From Solitalea longa (GTDB lineage: Bacteria; Bacteroidota; Bacteroidia; Sphingobacteriales; Sphingobacteriaceae), in contig NZ_PQVF01000001.1 in assembly GCF_002920915.1 (NCBI RefSeq), positions 372,001-436,000 on the forward strand: a stretch of 64,000 nucleotides of DNA. The letters are read 5' to 3'. Position 1 is the first letter of the stretch; the number at the start of each line of letters is the position of its first letter. The translations under genes were made by a program, and so were the position numbers. The notes beneath the pieces are model-generated. The model did not search any database, had not been told where the DNA came from, and saw only the letters and a program-made list of their open reading frames with translations. This document shows positions 2 through 9,023 of the stretch, piece by piece.

Positions 2-82
2 GTTCAATCTGATTTGCATTTGATGAAGAAGGATAAGTATTTAGCCGATGGAGGCTTCAAAACCTTAAACTATTTTGAATAG
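2..82 (+). CDS. C-terminal end of a probable GDP-mannose 4,6-dehydratase (partial)
   Basis: An open frame enters from the left edge and stops with TAG at 80-82, giving 26 residues that end in ...GGFKTLNYFE. From memory this tail (SDLHLMKKD...GG.KTLNYFE) is the usual C-terminus of Gmd in Bacteroidota. Gmd makes GDP-4-keto-6-deoxymannose, the precursor of GDP-fucose and related sugars, which would fit the polysaccharide locus that follows. Only the tail is visible and no active-site residue can be checked, so another sugar-nucleotide enzyme is possible. Confidence 0.45.
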   Translation, partial: VQSDLHLMKKDKYLADGGFKTLNYFE

Positions 83-101
83 AGAACTTTTAAAAGCCGG
101 C

Positions 102-2564
102 ATGAAACTTCGTCAGATATTAAAGACACTTTCATTTCTTTTCGTTTTTTCAATTTCATTAAATGTTGCAACCTTTGCTCAGGTTCCCGATTTAAGTGAT
201 CTTTCTTCTGTTAAAGTTGACAATCTAACTGATGATCAAATTCGTCAGTTTATAGTGCAGGCTAAGAAAAGTGGTTATACCGACACGCAATTGGAACAGT
301 TGGCTTTGCAGAAAGGAATGCCATCTTCTGAGATTGCAAAACTTCGTAAACGAATAGATAAAATTGGTGGTTTTGAAGAAGTTCAAAATGGAGCAGCCGG
401 TAGTGCGAAAGTTTCTGATAGTCAAACCCGTGAGTTTGATAAAGATGAATTGGTTGATAATCCAGATGGTACTCCTCAAGGCCAAAGTAAAATTTTCGGT
501 GCCGAAATTTTTAATAATAAAAGGTTAACCTTTGAGCCTAATCTTAAAATGGCTACCCCTCAAAATTACCAGTTGGGTCCAGGTGATCAGCTTGTTCTTG
601 ATATTTACGGTGTTTCAGAGGCTAATTACCAGCTGACGGTTAGTCCCGAAGGTTCAATTCGAATTCCATATGTTGGTCCAGTGACTGTAAGTGGATTAAC
701 TATTGAGCAAGCCAGAAAAAAAATCACTAATCAACTGGCAAGTGTTTACCAGGGAATGAAATCTGGTCAAACCTCAGTTAATATTACACTTGGAAATATT
801 CGTTCAATTAAAGTAGTGATATTGGGAGAAGTGCGACTTCCGGGTACCTATACGCTTCCATCTTTAGCAACGGCCTTTAATGCTTTGTATGCCTCTGGTG
901 GTCCAAATGAAAATGGGTCATTCAGGAATATTAAGATTATAAGAAATAGTAAAGTTGTTTCGGTTATAGATGTTTACGATTTCCTGATTAACGGGGATCA
1001 AAGTAAAAATATCAGACTGCAGGATCAGGATGTCATTAAGATTAGTCCTTATGAAACGAGAGTTGAGCTTGTAGGAGAGGTAAAAAGACAGGGGTTGTTT
1101 GAAGTAAAACCAAATGAATCATTGGCGGATGTTCTGAAATTTGCAGGAGGTTTTACAAATGAGGCCTATCGACAAAATATAAAAGTAGTTCGAAATACAG
1201 CTAAAGAGAAAAGTGTGGCTGATGTTTCTTCCGATTTATTCGCAATGTTCACTCCTCAAACAGGAGATATCTATACAGTCGAAAGGGTTCTGGACCGTTT
1301 TTCTAATCGTGTCCAAATTAATGGTGCTGTTTTTCGCCCAGGGAAATATGCTTTGGAAGAAGGTATGACTTTAAGCCAGCTTTTAATTAAAGCTGAGGGG
1401 ATCCGTGAGGACGCATTTACGAACCGGGGGGTGATTTATCGATTAAAAAGTGATCTTAGTCCTGAAATTGTTTCATTTAATGTGGCCGATATTATTTCAG
1501 GTAAAACAAGTGATATTGTGTTGAAAAGAGAAGATGTTGTTACAATTTCTTCAAAATTTGACTTAAAAGAGAATTATACGTTTTCTATTCAGGGAGAGGT
1601 GCAAAATCCGGGAGTTTATCCTTATGCGGAGAATATGCGTCTTGCCGATCTTATTTTGTTAGCCGGAGGATTGCGAGAAAGAGCATCTCTTAGCAGAATT
1701 GAGATCTCTCGCAGGCTTAAATCGGTAGACTCTTTGTCTAATAATGCCACTACAGCACAAGTATTTCAGTTTTCTTTAAATAAAGAGTTGACTGATTTAG
1801 GCGGTGCCGGAAACTTTATTTTGGAACCTTTTGATGAAGTTAGCATACGGCCCGCTCCAGGATACCAGGTGCAAAAGAATGTGAGGTTGGAGGGTGAAGT
1901 CCTTTATCCAGGATTTTACGCTATTGTTAACAAAAATGAGCGAATATCAGATGTTATTAAGCGTTCAGGAGGTTTATCGCCAATTGCTTATTCTAATGGA
2001 GCAGTTTTGATCAGGAGAAAAAAAATAACGGGAGCTGATAAAGTTCTTCAACAACAAAAACTGGAAGCATTAGAAAAACAAAGTAGGGATTCTTCCGCAT
2101 CTATTGATGTAATACAAGATGAACTTCAGAGTAAAACAACCTTATTAGGAATAAATTTACCTAAGATATTAGAGAACCCGGGTTCTAAATATGATTTGTT
2201 GTTAGAGGATGGTGATATAATTAAAATCCCCACCCAATTGCAAACTGTAGAAGTGAAAGGAGAAGTTCTTTTCCCGGTGTTAATTAGATATGATAAAGGC
2301 AGAGGGTTTAAGGATTATATAGTGGGAGCCGGAGGGTTTTCTTCAAAGGCATTAAAGAATAAATCCTATGTTGTTTATGCTAATGGTTCTGTTGCAAGTA
2401 CAAAAACGTTCTTATTCTTTCGAAGCTATCCATCTATAAAGCCTGGGGCCGAGATTTATGTGCCTGTACGAGAGGATCGCGAAAAGATGAGTACCGCTGG
2501 AATTGTTGGATTAACAACAAGCATTGTGTCGATGATGGCACTTATTGTATCTGTGCTCAAATAA
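102..2564 (+). CDS. Polysaccharide export protein, Wza type, with six SLBB-like repeats
   Basis: The 820-residue protein starts best at ATG 102, where a signal peptide of about 27 residues (MKLRQILK...ATFAQ) begins; an in-frame TTG at 75 would only add residues in front of it. A poly-export domain lies at about 150-230 (QLGPGDQLVLDIYG). It is followed by six copies of a G-E-V-like strand motif (near residues 237, 321, 405, 494, 594 and 716), each typical of an SLBB beta-grasp domain. The C-terminus ends in a hydrophobic helix at about 797-819. Wza-family proteins form the outer-membrane pore through which capsule or exopolysaccharide leaves the cell. E. coli Wza is under 400 residues; long multi-SLBB forms are common in Bacteroidota. 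It opens an export and assembly locus, and a terminator follows at 2583. Confidence 0.9.
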   Translation: MKLRQILKTLSFLFVFSISLNVATFAQVPDLSDLSSVKVDNLTDDQIRQFIVQAKKSGYTDTQLEQLALQKGMPSSEIAKLRKRIDKIGGFEEVQNGAAGSAKVSDSQTREFDKDELVDNPDGTPQGQSKIFGAEIFNNKRLTFEPNLKMATPQNYQLGPGDQLVLDIYGVSEANYQLTVSPEGSIRIPYVGPVTVSGLTIEQARKKITNQLASVYQGMKSGQTSVNITLGNIRSIKVVILGEVRLPGTYTLPSLATAFNALYASGGPNENGSFRNIKIIRNSKVVSVIDVYDFLINGDQSKNIRLQDQDVIKISPYETRVELVGEVKRQGLFEVKPNESLADVLKFAGGFTNEAYRQNIKVVRNTAKEKSVADVSSDLFAMFTPQTGDIYTVERVLDRFSNRVQINGAVFRPGKYALEEGMTLSQLLIKAEGIREDAFTNRGVIYRLKSDLSPEIVSFNVADIISGKTSDIVLKREDVVTISSKFDLKENYTFSIQGEVQNPGVYPYAENMRLADLILLAGGLRERASLSRIEISRRLKSVDSLSNNATTAQVFQFSLNKELTDLGGAGNFILEPFDEVSIRPAPGYQVQKNVRLEGEVLYPGFYAIVNKNERISDVIKRSGGLSPIAYSNGAVLIRRKKITGADKVLQQQKLEALEKQSRDSSASIDVIQDELQSKTTLLGINLPKILENPGSKYDLLLEDGDIIKIPTQLQTVEVKGEVLFPVLIRYDKGRGFKDYIVGAGGFSSKALKNKSYVVYANGSVASTKTFLFFRSYPSIKPGAEIYVPVREDREKMSTAGIVGLTTSIVSMMALIVSVLK

Positions 2565-2582: not shown

Positions 2583-2613
2583 AAAGGACGTTATTCAGAT
2601 AACGTCCTTTTTT
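2583..2613 (+). terminator. Intrinsic terminator after the Wza-like gene
   Basis: A perfect 12-base stem (AAAGGACGTTAT paired with ATAACGTCCTTT) with a 4-base loop runs straight into a T tract. It begins 18 bases after the stop codon. The rest of the gap to 2855 holds no clear gene. Confidence 0.85.
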
Positions 2614-2855: not shown

Positions 2856-3494
2856 ATGGATTTGAATCCGAAAAGAGTTGTGGTGCTGGCCCCTCATACC
2901 GATGACGGAGAACTAGGATGCGGGGGAACAATTGCATCGTTAATTGAAAAAAATGTCGATGTGTATTATGTTGCATTTTCTACTGCAGCAGAGTCTGTTC
3001 CTAAGGGGTTTCCTCAAGATGTTTTGAAAACAGAAGTTAAAGAGGCTACACGTCGTTTGGGTATTAAAAATGAAAATCTTATTATTTTTGATTATCAGGT
3101 TCGCAGACTTAATTATGAGCGCCAACCTATCTTAGAGGATTTGGTTAGAATCCGAAAAGATATAAACCCTGATTTGGTTTTTTTACCTTCTTTGCATGAT
3201 ATCCATCAAGATCATGTTACTGTTGCCCAGGAAGGTTTACGGGCTTACAAGAACACTACGATACTGGGCTATGAACTAATTTGGAATAATTTATCGTTTA
3301 ATACCACCTGTTTCGTTGAGCTTGAAAAGCGTCATATCGATATAAAGGTTAATGCATTAAAAGCTTATGTTTCGCAAGCCCATCGTACCTATACTTCCGA
3401 TGAGTTTATTTATTCCCTTGCCAAATCAAGAGGGGTTCAAATCGGAAATGGTTATTCTGAGGCATTTGAAGTTTTACGCCTGATACTGAAATAA
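2856..3494 (+). CDS. PIG-L / LmbE family N-deacetylase
   Basis: The 212-residue protein has the PIG-L signature: APHTDDGELGCGG near the N-terminus (H14, D16, D17) and HDIHQDH at 114-120. These residues bind the catalytic zinc in the family. Members remove acetyl groups from N-acetylglucosamine-type amines in GPI, mycothiol, bacillithiol and glycopeptide pathways. The stop overlaps the start of the next gene by one base (TAATG), so the two are translationally coupled. With an ATP-grasp ligase next door, a likely role is to expose an amino group on a sugar for a new acyl or aminoacyl group. No signal peptide is visible, so it should act in the cytoplasm. The family call is firm; the substrate is inferred. 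Confidence 0.88.
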   Translation: MDLNPKRVVVLAPHTDDGELGCGGTIASLIEKNVDVYYVAFSTAAESVPKGFPQDVLKTEVKEATRRLGIKNENLIIFDYQVRRLNYERQPILEDLVRIRKDINPDLVFLPSLHDIHQDHVTVAQEGLRAYKNTTILGYELIWNNLSFNTTCFVELEKRHIDIKVNALKAYVSQAHRTYTSDEFIYSLAKSRGVQIGNGYSEAFEVLRLILK

Positions 3495-4528
3495 TGATTA
3501 ATATTTTAATGACAGGAGCTGGAGCTCCGGGGGCTCCAGGTATTATAAAATGTTTAAAACAAGAGGGTTCTTTGAACCTTTTTTTGTGCGATAGTAATCC
3601 TGATGCTGTTGGACGGTTTTTACATGATGGTGTTTTTAAAGTCGTTCCAAAAGCCAATGATGTTGATTTTATAAAAGTTATTAAGCAAATCTGTTCAGAA
3701 AACAACATCAGTGTTATAATGCCTTTAGTAACACTTGAACTATTTGTATTCGCTAAGTATAAAGCTGAATTAGAAGAAATAGGAATTAAAGTGTTAGTTT
3801 CAGATGAAAAAGCCTTGAATATCGCTAACAATAAGGCGTATTTATACGAATTTCTTAATGCGAAGGGAGTTGACTTTATACCTTCCTTTTTGAAAGTAAA
3901 TACATACGATGAATTTAATAAGTCAATTAAAGAATTAGATTATCCCTCTGTACCAGTTTGTTTTAAACCATCGGTCTCAAATGGAAGCAGGGGATTTAGG
4001 ATTATTAATTCAACAGTAAATGAATTTGATCTGCTGTTTAATTATAAACCTGATAATACATATATCCTTTTAGAGAAGATCCAGGATATTTTAAGGGAAA
4101 ATAAATTTCCAGAACTTATCGTTAGTGAGTATTTGCCGGGTGAAGAATATTCCGTGGATTGCATCGCCAATAATGGAAAACCAGTATTAATTATTCCCCG
4201 CCTACGAAGGAAAATGTTAGGAGGCATTAGTACTGCCGGTGAAATTATAATGAATCAAGAATTGATTGTTTACTCTAAAGAGATAATTGAAAAAATTGGT
4301 TTGCATGGCAATATTGGTATTCAGTTTAAAAGGGCCGCTTCAGGTCAATTTAAATTACTTGAAATTAATCCTCGCGTGCAGGGAACAATCGTTTCGATAT
4401 TGGGTGCGGGCGTGAATATGCCTTTAATAGCTGTAAAACAGGAATTAGGGCTAAGAATTGAGGAAGCGGAATTGAATGTTAAATGGGGGACAAACTTTAT
4501 CAGATATTGGGATGAAGTCTTTTACTGA
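3494..4528 (+). CDS. ATP-grasp ligase, carbamoyl-phosphate synthase-like fold
   Basis: The 344-residue protein begins with a nucleotide-binding-like segment (ILMTGAGAPGAPGIIKCL) and continues as an ATP-grasp domain. Visible ATP-grasp elements are a lysine-containing strand and glycine loop (CFKPSVSNGSRGF), EYLPGEEYSVD, and the metal-binding LLEINPR at about 288-294. ATP-grasp enzymes form amide or similar bonds by activating a carboxylate as acyl-phosphate. It overlaps the PIG-L gene by one base and the HAD gene by 17 bases, so all three should be made together. A plausible role is joining an amino acid or other acid to a sugar amine freed by the deacetylase; this is inference. Confidence 0.82.
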   Translation: MINILMTGAGAPGAPGIIKCLKQEGSLNLFLCDSNPDAVGRFLHDGVFKVVPKANDVDFIKVIKQICSENNISVIMPLVTLELFVFAKYKAELEEIGIKVLVSDEKALNIANNKAYLYEFLNAKGVDFIPSFLKVNTYDEFNKSIKELDYPSVPVCFKPSVSNGSRGFRIINSTVNEFDLLFNYKPDNTYILLEKIQDILRENKFPELIVSEYLPGEEYSVDCIANNGKPVLIIPRLRRKMLGGISTAGEIIMNQELIVYSKEIIEKIGLHGNIGIQFKRAASGQFKLLEINPRVQGTIVSILGAGVNMPLIAVKQELGLRIEEAELNVKWGTNFIRYWDEVFY

Positions 4529-5159
4529 TATTAAGATTGGCGATAAATCTCTGATAAATGATTTTGATGTTTTTGTGTTTGATTTGGATGATACCCTTTA
4601 TCCTGAAATAGAATATCTGAAATATGCTTATGCGGAGATCGCTGACTATGTTTCCCAAAAGTATCAATTAAACAGGGATAGCATTAACACATTTCTTATT
4701 GATACCTTCTTAACAGAAGGTAGGGTAAAGCTTTTTGATAAATTAATAAAAACCTATTTTCTAGATCAAGATGATGTCGTTTCTTTTCTGGAAATCCTAA
4801 GGAATGTTAGTATAAACAATATAATAGAGCCATTTCCCCTTATAATCGATTTGTTAAGAACATTGAAAGAAAGGAATAAGCTTGTTTTTATCTTGACAAA
4901 CGGTAACCCGGTTCAACAAAAAAATAAAATTGAATCAATAAATTGGCATGACTTAAATTCATTCTTTACTCCTATTTATGCCAACTTACTGGCACCAAAA
5001 CCTTCACCAATTGGATTGTTTGAAATACTGAAGCTAAGTTCGGCTGTTTCGGAAAAAATAATATTTATCGGAGATTCAGAGGTTGACAGACTAAGTGCTT
5101 ATAATGCACAAATGGCTTTTCTAGATGTTAATAGAATGATGCAGTTTTTAGAAAAATAG
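4512..5159 (+). CDS. HAD-superfamily phosphatase
   Basis: The 215-residue protein has the four HAD motifs in order: FDLDDTLYPE (nucleophile D24, D26), ILTNG, a lysine in APKPSP, and FIGDSEVDR. ATG 4512 is preferred; an ATG at 4476 would lengthen the overlap with the ATP-grasp gene from 17 to 53 bases and add residues with no HAD homology. HAD proteins of this kind remove phosphate from small molecules such as sugar phosphates. Tight coupling with the PIG-L and ATP-grasp genes suggests one short pathway that modifies a sugar or its donor. The real substrate cannot be read from the sequence. Confidence 0.82.
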   Translation: MKSFTDIKIGDKSLINDFDVFVFDLDDTLYPEIEYLKYAYAEIADYVSQKYQLNRDSINTFLIDTFLTEGRVKLFDKLIKTYFLDQDDVVSFLEILRNVSINNIIEPFPLIIDLLRTLKERNKLVFILTNGNPVQQKNKIESINWHDLNSFFTPIYANLLAPKPSPIGLFEILKLSSAVSEKIIFIGDSEVDRLSAYNAQMAFLDVNRMMQFLEK

Positions 5160-5357: not shown

Positions 5358-6440
5358 ATGGAACAATCTCAGTTCAATACGAATATCTCCGATTCTGAAA
5401 TTTCTCTTAAAGAAGTAATCTTAAAAATGAAGGAATGGTGGCATTATTTATTGTCACAATGGAGGTTTATTCTAATAGCCGGCTTTATTGGAGGGGCCTT
5501 AGGTGTAGTTTATTCCTTTGTTAAGAAACCAATTTATACCGCTGAACTTACTTTTGCCTTAGAGGAGGATTCGGGTGGTGGTGGATTGGGCCTTTATGCT
5601 GGTTTAGCTTCTCAGTTTGGTATTGATCTTGGTGGCGGAGCTGGAGGGGCTTTTTCAGGAGATAATATTATTGAATTGATGAAATCTCGATCGATGGTTC
5701 AAAAAGCATTGCTCTCTCCAATTAATATAAAGGGAAGAAACGAAACTCTAGCAGACTATTTTATTGATTTTAATGAACTAAAAGAAGATTGGAAAAAGGA
5801 GCCTTTGTTACAAAATGTACAATTTCCTTTAAATGCAGATCCATCTAAATTTACCAGAACTCAAGATAGTTTGCTTGGAGAATTTCATAAGATTTTTATT
5901 AAGAAAAATCTATCAGTATCCAAGGTTGATAAAAAGCTAAGCATTATATCTGTACAATGTAGTTTTACAAATGAAATGTTTGCTAAGGTTTTTACTGAAG
6001 CATTAGTGAATAATGTTACAGATTTCTACGTGAAAACAAAAACGGGGCGATCAAAAAAGAATGTAGCCATACTTCAAGAGAAGGCAGATTCTTTACGAAA
6101 TGAACTAGACAAGTCAATTTACGGGAGAGCTCTAATTATCGATAAGACTCCTAATCTAAATCCCGTACGACAGGTTGTTGCGGTAGGAAGTCAGCAAAAG
6201 GAAGTAGATATTCAGGTTTTGGGGACCGCTTATGGAGAGGTGGTGAAAAATCTGGAGATATCAAAAATGGCATTGACCAGAGAAACTCCATTTATTCAAA
6301 TTATTGATGTGCCAATAATGCCATTGGAAGAAGAGAAAGTCGGAAAATTAAAAGGCTTTGTTTTGGGATGCATCCTGAGCGTTTTTTTTACTCTTATTTA
6401 CTTGTTATTTAGGGGCGCTTCAAAAAGTATACAGAAATAA
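5358..6440 (+). CDS. Wzz-like chain-length determinant (polysaccharide co-polymerase)
   Basis: The 360-residue protein has a cytoplasmic N-terminus, a first membrane helix at 36-55, a large periplasmic part, and a second helix at about 331-351 near the C-terminus. This two-helix layout, with coiled-coil-prone sequence before the second helix, is that of Wzz/PCP proteins, which set the length of polymers made by Wzy. A glycine-rich stretch (about 74-100) follows the first helix. No tyrosine-kinase domain is attached at the C-terminus, unlike many capsule co-polymerases. The 198-base gap in front (5160-5357) is AT-rich with poly-T runs and shows no gene. Confidence 0.85.
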   Translation: MEQSQFNTNISDSEISLKEVILKMKEWWHYLLSQWRFILIAGFIGGALGVVYSFVKKPIYTAELTFALEEDSGGGGLGLYAGLASQFGIDLGGGAGGAFSGDNIIELMKSRSMVQKALLSPINIKGRNETLADYFIDFNELKEDWKKEPLLQNVQFPLNADPSKFTRTQDSLLGEFHKIFIKKNLSVSKVDKKLSIISVQCSFTNEMFAKVFTEALVNNVTDFYVKTKTGRSKKNVAILQEKADSLRNELDKSIYGRALIIDKTPNLNPVRQVVAVGSQQKEVDIQVLGTAYGEVVKNLEISKMALTRETPFIQIIDVPIMPLEEEKVGKLKGFVLGCILSVFFTLIYLLFRGASKSIQK

Positions 6441-7811: not shown

Positions 7812-9023
7812 TTGTCTGAAAAATCGATAATTGAGAAGATCAAAAGAGACGGACTTTGCTTAGGTTGTGGTTTGTGTGAAAGCGTATGCGGTAAAGATTC
7901 GGTTGAGATGCGTTTGCAAAAAAATGGTTTTTTTCTGCCGGAGATCAAATCTTTAAATGCGGACAAGGAGAAGGTTATTAATGAAATCTGCCCGGGTATT
8001 AATATTGTAAATGATTTAAGCTTTGGTAAGGATGAAAAAATTTGGGGACGAATTGAAGAATTAAGATCAGGATATAGTACTGACGCAGAGGTGCGTTTCC
8101 ATGGGTCTTCCGGAGGAATTATTAGTGCTATTGCCATACATGCTTTAAGTACCGGTAAAGTTGATGCGGTACTACAAGTAGGTGGAGATAGTGCCGATTT
8201 TGAAAGAAATACGCTGAAAATTTCAAAGAGCCGCCATGATGTTTTAGAATGTGCCTCATCGCGTTATGCTCCTGCGCTGATTTTTGATAAGATTTTTGAG
8301 ATTTTAGAGAGCTCTAACGAAGTGTACTGTTTTATAGGGAAGCCTTGTGATATTTCTGCACTTAAAAATTTCCTGAATGTTTATCCTATCTACAAAAGCC
8401 GATTTAAATTATATGTATCTATAATGTGTGCTGGGATGCCTTCATTTAATGGTACAAAAGAAATTATAAACAATTTAGGTGCAAATGAGCCTGTTAATAA
8501 TTTAACCTACAGAGGTGACGGGTGGCCTGGTTATTTTTCGTTTGCAGATAATCAAGGGCAACAGTTTAAAATGAGTTATAATGACTCCTGGGGTAATACT
8601 CTTAATAGGTTTTTAAACTTTAGATGCAAATTATGCCCAGATGGTATTGGCTTGCAAGCAGATATTGCAGTTGGAGATGCCTGGGATACAAAAGATGGAT
8701 ATCCTGATTTTTCAGAGAAAGATGGATTAAGTTTAGTAATTGCGCGGACTAAAGCAGGGGTAGAAGTGTTAACTGATGCCCAAACTGAAGGAAGTATGTG
8801 TTTTGAAGAACTTCCGCATTTTAAGTTAGCACAAATGCAACCCTATCAGTATGCGAGAAGAAGTCGGGTTGGTGCCAGGGTCCTTGCATATATTTTGGTA
8901 AAACAAAGGACGCTTAGGTTTAAACATCTAAGGGTATGGAAAAATTTAATCGGGGTTTCTCCTGTTGATTTACTTAAGGAGTTTATGGGGACTTTTAGAA
9001 GGTCTATCAAGTACAGAAGCTAA
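7812..9023 (+). CDS. FrhB-like iron-sulfur flavoprotein in the polysaccharide locus
   Basis: The 403-residue protein uses a TTG start. It has one compact iron-sulfur motif near the N-terminus, CLGCGLCESVC (C16, C19, C22, C26), then EICPG, CAGMPS and CKLCPDG further on. This is the layout of the coenzyme F420 hydrogenase/dehydrogenase beta-subunit family (FrhB), which binds FAD and a [4Fe-4S] cluster. Homologues sit beside pyruvyl transferases in many capsule loci of bacteria not known to make F420, where their reaction is unknown. It starts 2 bases after the pyruvyl transferase stop and is followed 8 bases later by the acetyltransferase. Confidence 0.8.
   Translation: MSEKSIIEKIKRDGLCLGCGLCESVCGKDSVEMRLQKNGFFLPEIKSLNADKEKVINEICPGINIVNDLSFGKDEKIWGRIEELRSGYSTDAEVRFHGSSGGIISAIAIHALSTGKVDAVLQVGGDSADFERNTLKISKSRHDVLECASSRYAPALIFDKIFEILESSNEVYCFIGKPCDISALKNFLNVYPIYKSRFKLYVSIMCAGMPSFNGTKEIINNLGANEPVNNLTYRGDGWPGYFSFADNQGQQFKMSYNDSWGNTLNRFLNFRCKLCPDGIGLQADIAVGDAWDTKDGYPDFSEKDGLSLVIARTKAGVEVLTDAQTEGSMCFEELPHFKLAQMQPYQYARRSRVGARVLAYILVKQRTLRFKHLRVWKNLIGVSPVDLLKEFMGTFRRSIKYRS

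Follow-up and report, generated by a model that had tools for sequence, protein, structure and literature searches.

Mycothiol and bacillithiol are made by deacetylation followed by ligation to an amine, the second step being performed by MshC and BshC, whose families differ from the ATP-grasp ligase considered below. The deacetylases of these pathways, MshB and BshB, are PIG-L proteins that act on a GlcNAc glycoside, according to the portion of the source available to us (PMC4101496). The likeness to the genes described here lies in the logic of deacetylating and then ligating. A PIG-L gene is also found in Pseudomonas, where PA5002 is presumably dnpA. It lies within the core-oligosaccharide locus of the LPS, and in that respect resembles the present case, with its neighbor being PA5003, a GNAT protein; the functions of both are listed as unknown, and neither an ATP-grasp nor an HAD gene is seen there in the accessible part of the report (PMC8005017). 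The same portion of that report states that the core GalN of P. syringae pv. phaseolicola bears L-Ala.

A further precedent comes from the capsule of Campylobacter jejuni, where Cj1438C links (S)-serinol phosphate to the carboxylate of glucuronate and the HAD phosphatase Cj1435 then removes the phosphate, as given in the parts of two reports that were available (PMC11800397, PMC13276843). The points of likeness would be an ATP-dependent amide in a surface glycan, a phosphorylated partner and removal of its phosphate by an HAD enzyme (PMC11800397). The C. jejuni system differs in that the description, as far as it was available, has no deacetylase step, and in that the sugar contributes the carboxylate and not the amine. 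An 'ATP-grasp amino acyl ligase' is listed in a sugar-modification neighborhood of Clostridium acetobutylicum, and the words LmbE, deacetylase and PIG-L do not occur in the main text of that paper (PMC4000134).

In the one open-access library that was searched, ATP-grasp and LmbE never occur in the same paper, nor do PIG-L, HAD and ATP-grasp taken as whole words. The three genes described here are ordinary families in an arrangement that we did not find described in that library, and they are a variant of a known logic and not a new kind of system.

The three genes and their locus

The window, the whole stretch of 64,000 nucleotides of the Solitalea longa genome (4.5 Mb in 36 contigs) that was analyzed, contains three intact, open reading frames on the + strand between positions 2856 and 5159. 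The first (2856..3494, + strand; 212 aa) matches PF02585 PIG-L with 71.9 bits against a cut-off of 28.2. The second (3494..4528, + strand; 344 aa) is a carbamoyl-phosphate-synthase-like or PylC-like ATP-grasp protein, with 112.2 bits to PF15632 ATPgrasp_Ter (cut-off 29.1) and a match to PF21360 PylC-like_N. The third (4512..5159, + strand; 215 aa) matches PF13419 HAD_2 with 65.7 bits (cut-off 23.8). The first two genes overlap by 1 base, and the second and third by 17 bases if the HAD protein starts at 4512; the longest reading frame begins at 4476, and the overlap is then 53 bases. The families and overlaps given in the first-pass annotation are thus borne out by the reading frames and by Pfam scores above their cut-offs.

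The PIG-L protein has H14, D16, D17, R83, H117, D119 and H120, all invariant in the 34 aligned sequences, and the roles of these residues in LmbE enzymes are taken from the available part of PMC4101496. By its family score and these zinc and catalytic residues it is a member of the PIG-L/LmbE family and a predicted deacetylase. An AF2 model of high confidence (pLDDT 94.2) is close to diacetylchitobiose deacetylases and to BshB, with Z values of 24-25 at 2.3-2.6 Å over 197-201 residues. It is not recognized as the bacillithiol deacetylase BshB1, scoring 66 bits against a cut-off of 182.5, and a separate BshB1 is found elsewhere in the genome (L001) with 273.2 bits. The earlier comparison of the gene order to mycothiol synthesis is therefore sustained as regards the logic alone.

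In the ATP-grasp protein K114, K158, E212, Q277, E290, N292 and R294 are invariant in all 53 aligned sequences. The AF2 model (pLDDT 94.3) has 2pn1 as its top match in the PDB (Z 30.6), with biotin carboxylase and PylC next (Z 26.6) and PurK, PurT and L-amino-acid ligases also near. By its predicted fold and its nucleotide and metal residues it is assigned to the ATP-grasp ligases. It resembles the PF15632 ATPgrasp_Ter and PylC-like enzymes in Pfam match and in fold, and differs from them in being found here in glycan loci. It is a relative of the NCBIfam equivalog PRK12767.1-1 and not a member, with 146.5 bits where 218 are required. The HAD protein has the D-x-D, T, K and D motifs that make it a predicted phosphatase of this family: D24, D26, T129, K163 and D192 are invariant in 21 of 21 aligned sequences, and D188 is present in 19 of them. 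Among solved structures the HAD profile finds the putative HAD hydrolase PH1655 best (70 bits), and it matches N-acylneuraminate-9-phosphatases with 56-59 bits.

The trio lies between two genes of polysaccharide assembly. Upstream is a polysaccharide export protein (75..2564, + strand) that scores 159.6 bits with the NCBIfam EpsE model, under its cut-off of 262.65, and downstream a Wzz chain-length protein (5358..6440, + strand; PF02706, 31 bits, cut-off 25.5), followed by genes for a polysaccharide pyruvyl transferase, an FrhB/FdhB-type protein and a hexapeptide acetyltransferase. The trio is preceded by a terminator-like hairpin (2583..2610, + strand) that follows the export gene and has 12 pairs, a loop of 4 and a T tail. 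Its folding energy is -14.4 kcal/mol (z -4.18), and four such sites were found in that region where 2.6 are expected. Since the hairpin separates the trio from the export gene, the trio is probably its own transcription unit. A promoter of the Bacteroidota -33/-7 type was set aside for the trio: the window has a single match to the pattern, within the PIG-L gene, although 5.3 would be expected. Run against PADLOC, the three proteins gave no hit, and a role as defense genes was likewise set aside.

In all three same-genus genomes examined the export protein (69-87% identity) and Wzz (61-65%) are present in the same order, and neither the ATP-grasp (E 1e-20) nor the PIG-L protein (E 1e-35) was found in them. 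The slot between the two genes is occupied in all three by a legionaminic-acid-type set in place of the trio. In one genome, G001, LegB, LegC, NeuD, NeuB and NeuC score above the NCBIfam cut-offs and a sixth, PseF-like protein falls under its cut-off; for G002 and G003 the sets were assigned by visual comparison, and that of G003 has an additional ORF of 468 aa. Because the contents differ among genomes of the same genus, the trio sits where the genus exchanges cassettes for sugar synthesis, and this slot is the strongest link between the trio and a surface glycan.

Recurrence and replacement of the parts

Relatives were collected by scanning genome contigs with nine ATP-grasp queries. The best 80 of 163 were retained and combined with nine earlier records, and after removal of three duplicates (L075, L088 and L125, equal to L011, L012 and L036) 86 records were classified. 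In 39 of these 86, PIG-L lies directly 5' of the ATP-grasp gene on the same strand, which argues that the order is more than chance. Three of the loci (L038, L043 and L050) entered through a PIG-L search and so are not independent, and the pairing is 36 of 83 without them; many of the 39 are moreover near-copies, so that the counts overstate independence. In this set, which rests on the best 80 of 163 relatives and the added records, the PIG-L and ATP-grasp genes overlap in 29 of the 39 loci when the longest reading frames are taken. The gene after the ATP-grasp gene is HAD in 21, PHP in 10, a Gfo/Idh/MocA oxidoreductase in three and something else in five, and thus a phosphatase is next in 31 of the 39 and neither type in eight. 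Relatives of the set of genes that was first proposed from the window are found in other genomes, in Bacteroidota, Bacillota, Chloroflexota, Pelagibacteraceae and Archaea, with unrelated enzymes in some of them taking the places of its first and last members.

Glycosyltransferases are the commonest neighbors of the relatives. Among 129 neighbor proteins there are 21 Glycos_transf_1, 10 Glycos_transf_2, seven DegT, seven GFO/IDH/MocA and five Aminotran_1_2 proteins. The tally covers same-strand neighbors of 110 to 620 aa, without the window and near-copies, and uses 129 of 130 proteins, leaving out that of L107, a locus whose PIG-L relative is 30% identical and on the opposite strand. The original reading of a deacetylating and ligating unit, set in a glycan locus with a phosphatase next to it, is supported.

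PIG-L and ATP-grasp genes go together in genomes as well as in loci. At E 1e-35 a sample of 395 genomes of the phylum has both in five, PIG-L only in 16, ATP-grasp only in none and neither in 374, so that ATP-grasp always occurs with PIG-L (5/5), which is present in 21 genomes overall (Fisher 4.9e-6 with our own genome excluded and kinship uncorrected). The two phylum searches were treated as one draw of 395 genomes, as their size and handles agree. A sample of 201 genomes of the family, at the same threshold, has both in eight, PIG-L only in one, ATP-grasp only in none and neither in 192 (Fisher 3.5e-12, again excluding our own genome and uncorrected for kinship). Distances are also correlated: PIG-L against ATP-grasp with rho 0.44 (0 of 2000 permutations, 31 loci), ATP-grasp against HAD with rho 0.60 (0 of 2000, 18 loci) and, more weakly, PIG-L against HAD with rho 0.32 (31 of 2000, 15 loci). 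The near-copies L121, L115, L071, L076 and L083 are excluded from these comparisons, some of them being absent from the alignments anyway, and common ancestry may lie behind part of the correlations.

PIG-L is not directly upstream in 47 of the 86 records that include the best 80 of 163, most of them loci of a Chitinophagaceae type. Within these 47 TraB is found in 36 and UbiD in 33; the names UbiD, TraB, GT2 and GT39 come from reading translations unless backed by Pfam. ATP-grasp loci L092, L100 and L126 also lack PIG-L. Of ten ATP-grasp-bearing genomes of the Chitinophagaceae type, nine encode a PIG-L protein, 46-53% identical, at a separate locus, which in eight of them is on a different contig from the ATP-grasp gene and in G446 about 24 kb off on the same contig; the search gave no match in the tenth. 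No HAD relative was found in any of the ten at E 1e-5, in a search run without a positive control. Since no HAD or PHP gene is next in eight of the 39 loci and no HAD relative was found in these ten genomes, PIG-L and ATP-grasp are the core of the module and HAD is replaceable. The idea of a three-gene unit thus stands for the deacetylase and ligase, and gives way for the HAD protein, which is not obligatory.

The phosphatase position can be filled by HAD or PHP, unrelated phosphoester hydrolases; the PHP proteins of the set retrieve PolX PHP domains and histidinol phosphatases. On a tree of 35 ATP-grasp rows, in which one in four members of the UbiD/TraB class was kept, at least three changes between HAD and PHP are needed. 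The deacetylase position can likewise be filled by PIG-L or by a haloarchaeal polysaccharide-deacetylase-like gene. In six of the seven haloarchaeal loci examined (L122, L127, L128, L131, L133 and L167) the latter gene is followed, after room for roughly one gene, by ATP-grasp and HAD; three of ten plasmid matches were examined. The intervening gene of L167 is a glycosyltransferase by annotation, and its deacetylase-like protein matches Pfam Polysacc_deac_1 with 27.0 bits (cut-off 23.1), the other haloarchaeal ones being 48-52% identical to it. Searching with tblastn gave no PIG-L in the five of these loci that come from genomes, and none is labeled or annotated in L167. The ATP-grasp genes of the GC-rich L127 and L133 were found by tblastn, and both loci stand as 'noGRASP' in the 86-record count. 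The seventh locus, L166 from Haloferax mediterranei, has ATP-grasp with no label for a deacetylase or HAD.

Bacillota and Chloroflexota loci have a run of dehydrogenase, oxidoreductase, acetyltransferase, DegT aminotransferase, deacetylase-like gene, PIG-L, ATP-grasp and PHP, complete in L116 and L119 and in part in L106 and L117. Their deacetylase-like gene is 46% identical to a haloarchaeal one and has no Pfam match of its own. We take the run to resemble the UDP-diacetamido-uronate pathway (WbpABDE); in L119 only a general model for nucleotide-sugar dehydrogenases is above its cut-off.

A candidate route for sugar re-acylation

These observations can be gathered into a reading in which the trio is a cassette for sugar re-acylation within a surface-glycan locus, and to which we give an even chance of being correct. 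PIG-L would de-N-acetylate an amino sugar, which could be attached to a nucleotide or a lipid or already be part of the growing glycan. The ATP-grasp ligase would activate a carboxylic acid as its acyl phosphate and form an amide with the freed amine, and the HAD protein would take off a phosphate. Most simply the phosphate would come from an acid derived from a phosphorylated metabolite such as phosphoserine or phosphoglycerate, dephosphorylated after ligation. The trio probably exchanges the acetyl group of a sugar for another chemical group; we infer the substrates, the order of the steps and the amine as acceptor of the ligase. As deacetylase and ATP-grasp are the constant pair, the ligase would most simply act on the amine freed by the deacetylase, and the presence of a phosphatase is explained if the ligated acid bears a phosphate. 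No relative with a solved glycan was found. Also counting against the reading are the 47 records in which PIG-L is not directly upstream, the one Chitinophagaceae-type genome with no PIG-L match, locus L166, and the WbqC genes near PIG-L that are described below. In gene context the locus shares with C. jejuni an ATP-grasp gene beside an HAD gene among surface-glycan genes, and that precedent may support the ligase-phosphatase half of the reading by analogy, though the sugar there is the acid. For the half that joins deacetylation to acylation, the analog is the Pseudomonas core locus, with its PIG-L gene beside a GNAT gene and the L-alanine on a core GalN in P. syringae pv. phaseolicola.

The same precedent suggests an alternative that we consider unlikely, in which two separate decorations are made. 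PIG-L would free an amine on one sugar, and the ATP-grasp ligase would amidate the carboxylate of a uronate with a phosphorylated amine that HAD then dephosphorylates. Amidation of a uronate is exactly the published reaction, in the available parts of the reports (PMC11800397, PMC13276843). Nucleotide-sugar dehydrogenase genes lie nearby in loci L099, L106, L116, L119, L166 and L167, and a set of this kind is present in our own genome, on a different contig (L190). Against this, no such dehydrogenase was recognized in window 1-20 kb by reading of the ORFs, which names the genes at 9.8-20 kb from their translations, and partial family searches. PLP enzymes that could make a phospho-amine as in C. 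jejuni may be among the DegT and Aminotran_1_2 neighbors of relatives tallied above, and none was recognized in window 1-20 kb, where seven genes outside the trio were family-searched in part. PIG-L and ATP-grasp persist together in genomes with no detected HAD relative, and a deacetylase-like gene is kept where PIG-L is absent, which ties deacetylation to ligation. Ligation to the amine is favored over the C. jejuni orientation, since the deacetylase is retained even where the phosphatase is not.

It is less probable still that the product is a glycoside, either small and diffusible or lipid-linked, that arises by glycosyl transfer, dephosphorylation, deacetylation and ligation in the manner of mycothiol, and not a decoration of a polymer. 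The kinds of step equal those of mycothiol and bacillithiol, the deacetylases being as described in the accessible portion of PMC4101496. Such a product would suit the Chitinophagaceae-type loci, where ATP-grasp adjoins UbiD and TraB-like genes named by eye, and where seven of the nine PIG-L regions that were read have GT2/DUF2304 or sulfatase-like genes next to PIG-L and no obvious cluster for glycan assembly around it. It fits poorly with the predominance of glycosyltransferases among neighbors elsewhere and with the place of the trio in a slot for sugar cassettes. Finally, it is very improbable that the ligase activates bicarbonate or another one-carbon acid to give a carbamoyl- or formyl-type amine: Q277, E290, N292 and R294 do align with the Q, E, N and R of carbamoyl-phosphate synthase, presumably its metal ligands, and the fold is close to those of biotin carboxylase, PurK and PurT, but PylC and L-amino-acid ligases fit the fold about equally, and the acid is not readable from the fold.

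The re-acylation reading can be extended, tentatively and with less expectation that it will hold, to a cross-domain, horizontally mobile module in which a constant ATP-grasp ligase would be combined with interchangeable deacetylases (PIG-L or NodB-type) and phosphatases (HAD or PHP), a phosphorylated acid being ligated to the freed sugar amine and then dephosphorylated. If this is true, bacteria and archaea would have in common a general way of making amide-linked sugar decorations, one that we did not find described in the library searched. The re-acylation reading itself, if right, would yield a sequence signature for N-acyl sugar decorations. The genes for these tend to be overlooked, as annotation calls the ligase no more than carbamoyl-phosphate-synthase-like or a plain ATP-grasp protein. 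The double replacement, of HAD by PHP and of PIG-L by a NodB-type protein, means that the chemistry can be tested across phyla by way of gene context.

Other neighbors of PIG-L genes

The 16 PIG-L loci of the phylum sample that have no ATP-grasp present a different set of neighbors. An LpxD-like acyltransferase and an AMP-forming ligase are next in six, all in one family (f44), the LpxD-like gene alone is found in one, a WbqC-like gene lies within three genes in six, and neither is present in three. The WbqC and LpxD-like labels were each assigned by BLAST with a single query, and listings of the open-access literature yielded no function for WbqC. None of the LpxD-like, AMP-ligase or WbqC genes occurs in the 39 PIG-L/ATP-grasp loci from the set that includes the best 80 of 163 relatives. 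The position of PIG-L beside LpxD-like and AMP-ligase genes suggests re-acylation there too, and, leaving WbqC outside, the whole reads as one type of deacetylase with alternative acylating partners.

The slot between the export gene and Wzz

The trio of PIG-L deacetylase (2856-3494), ATP-grasp ligase (3494-4528) and HAD phosphatase (4512-5159) occupies the slot that lies between the polysaccharide export gene (75-2564) and the gene for the chain-length protein Wzz (5358-6440). In three genomes of the same genus (L193, L194 and L195) this same slot is filled by a legionaminic-acid-type gene set, with family cut-offs applied to L193 only. A terminator-like hairpin of 12 pairs followed by a T tail (2583-2610) separates the export gene from the trio. 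Downstream within the window, the glycan locus includes an FrhB/FdhB-type protein (7812-9023), with a pyruvyl transferase on one side of it and a hexapeptide acetyltransferase on the other.

ATP-grasp relatives

The gene order UbiD, ATP-grasp, TraB is conserved in the Chitinophagaceae-type loci, for example L057, the names having been assigned by eye. In nine of the ten Chitinophagaceae-type genomes searched, PIG-L is located away from this locus. It is possible that the PIG-L and ATP-grasp pair has a conserved chromosomal function in these genomes.

On a Haloferax mediterranei plasmid (L166) a related ATP-grasp gene has two genes for nucleotide-sugar dehydrogenases and one GT39 gene beside it, and neither HAD nor PIG-L is present at the locus. 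In Tuberibacillus (L107) ATP-grasp is followed by a kinase of the aminoglycoside-phosphotransferase type, as judged by eye, and the sole PIG-L relative adjoining ATP-grasp is 30% identical and lies on the opposite strand.

PIG-L genes in other loci

Six loci, all from one family (L041, L042 and L044-L047), have genes for an LpxD-like acyltransferase and for an AMP-forming ligase after PIG-L; the three together may form a parallel re-acylation module. A WbqC-like gene adjoins or is close to PIG-L in L037, L039, L040, L049, L053 and L054, the label being confirmed by Pfam for one of these. The PIG-L of L036 (550-1872, genome G168) carries an extra N-terminal stretch of ~230 aa.
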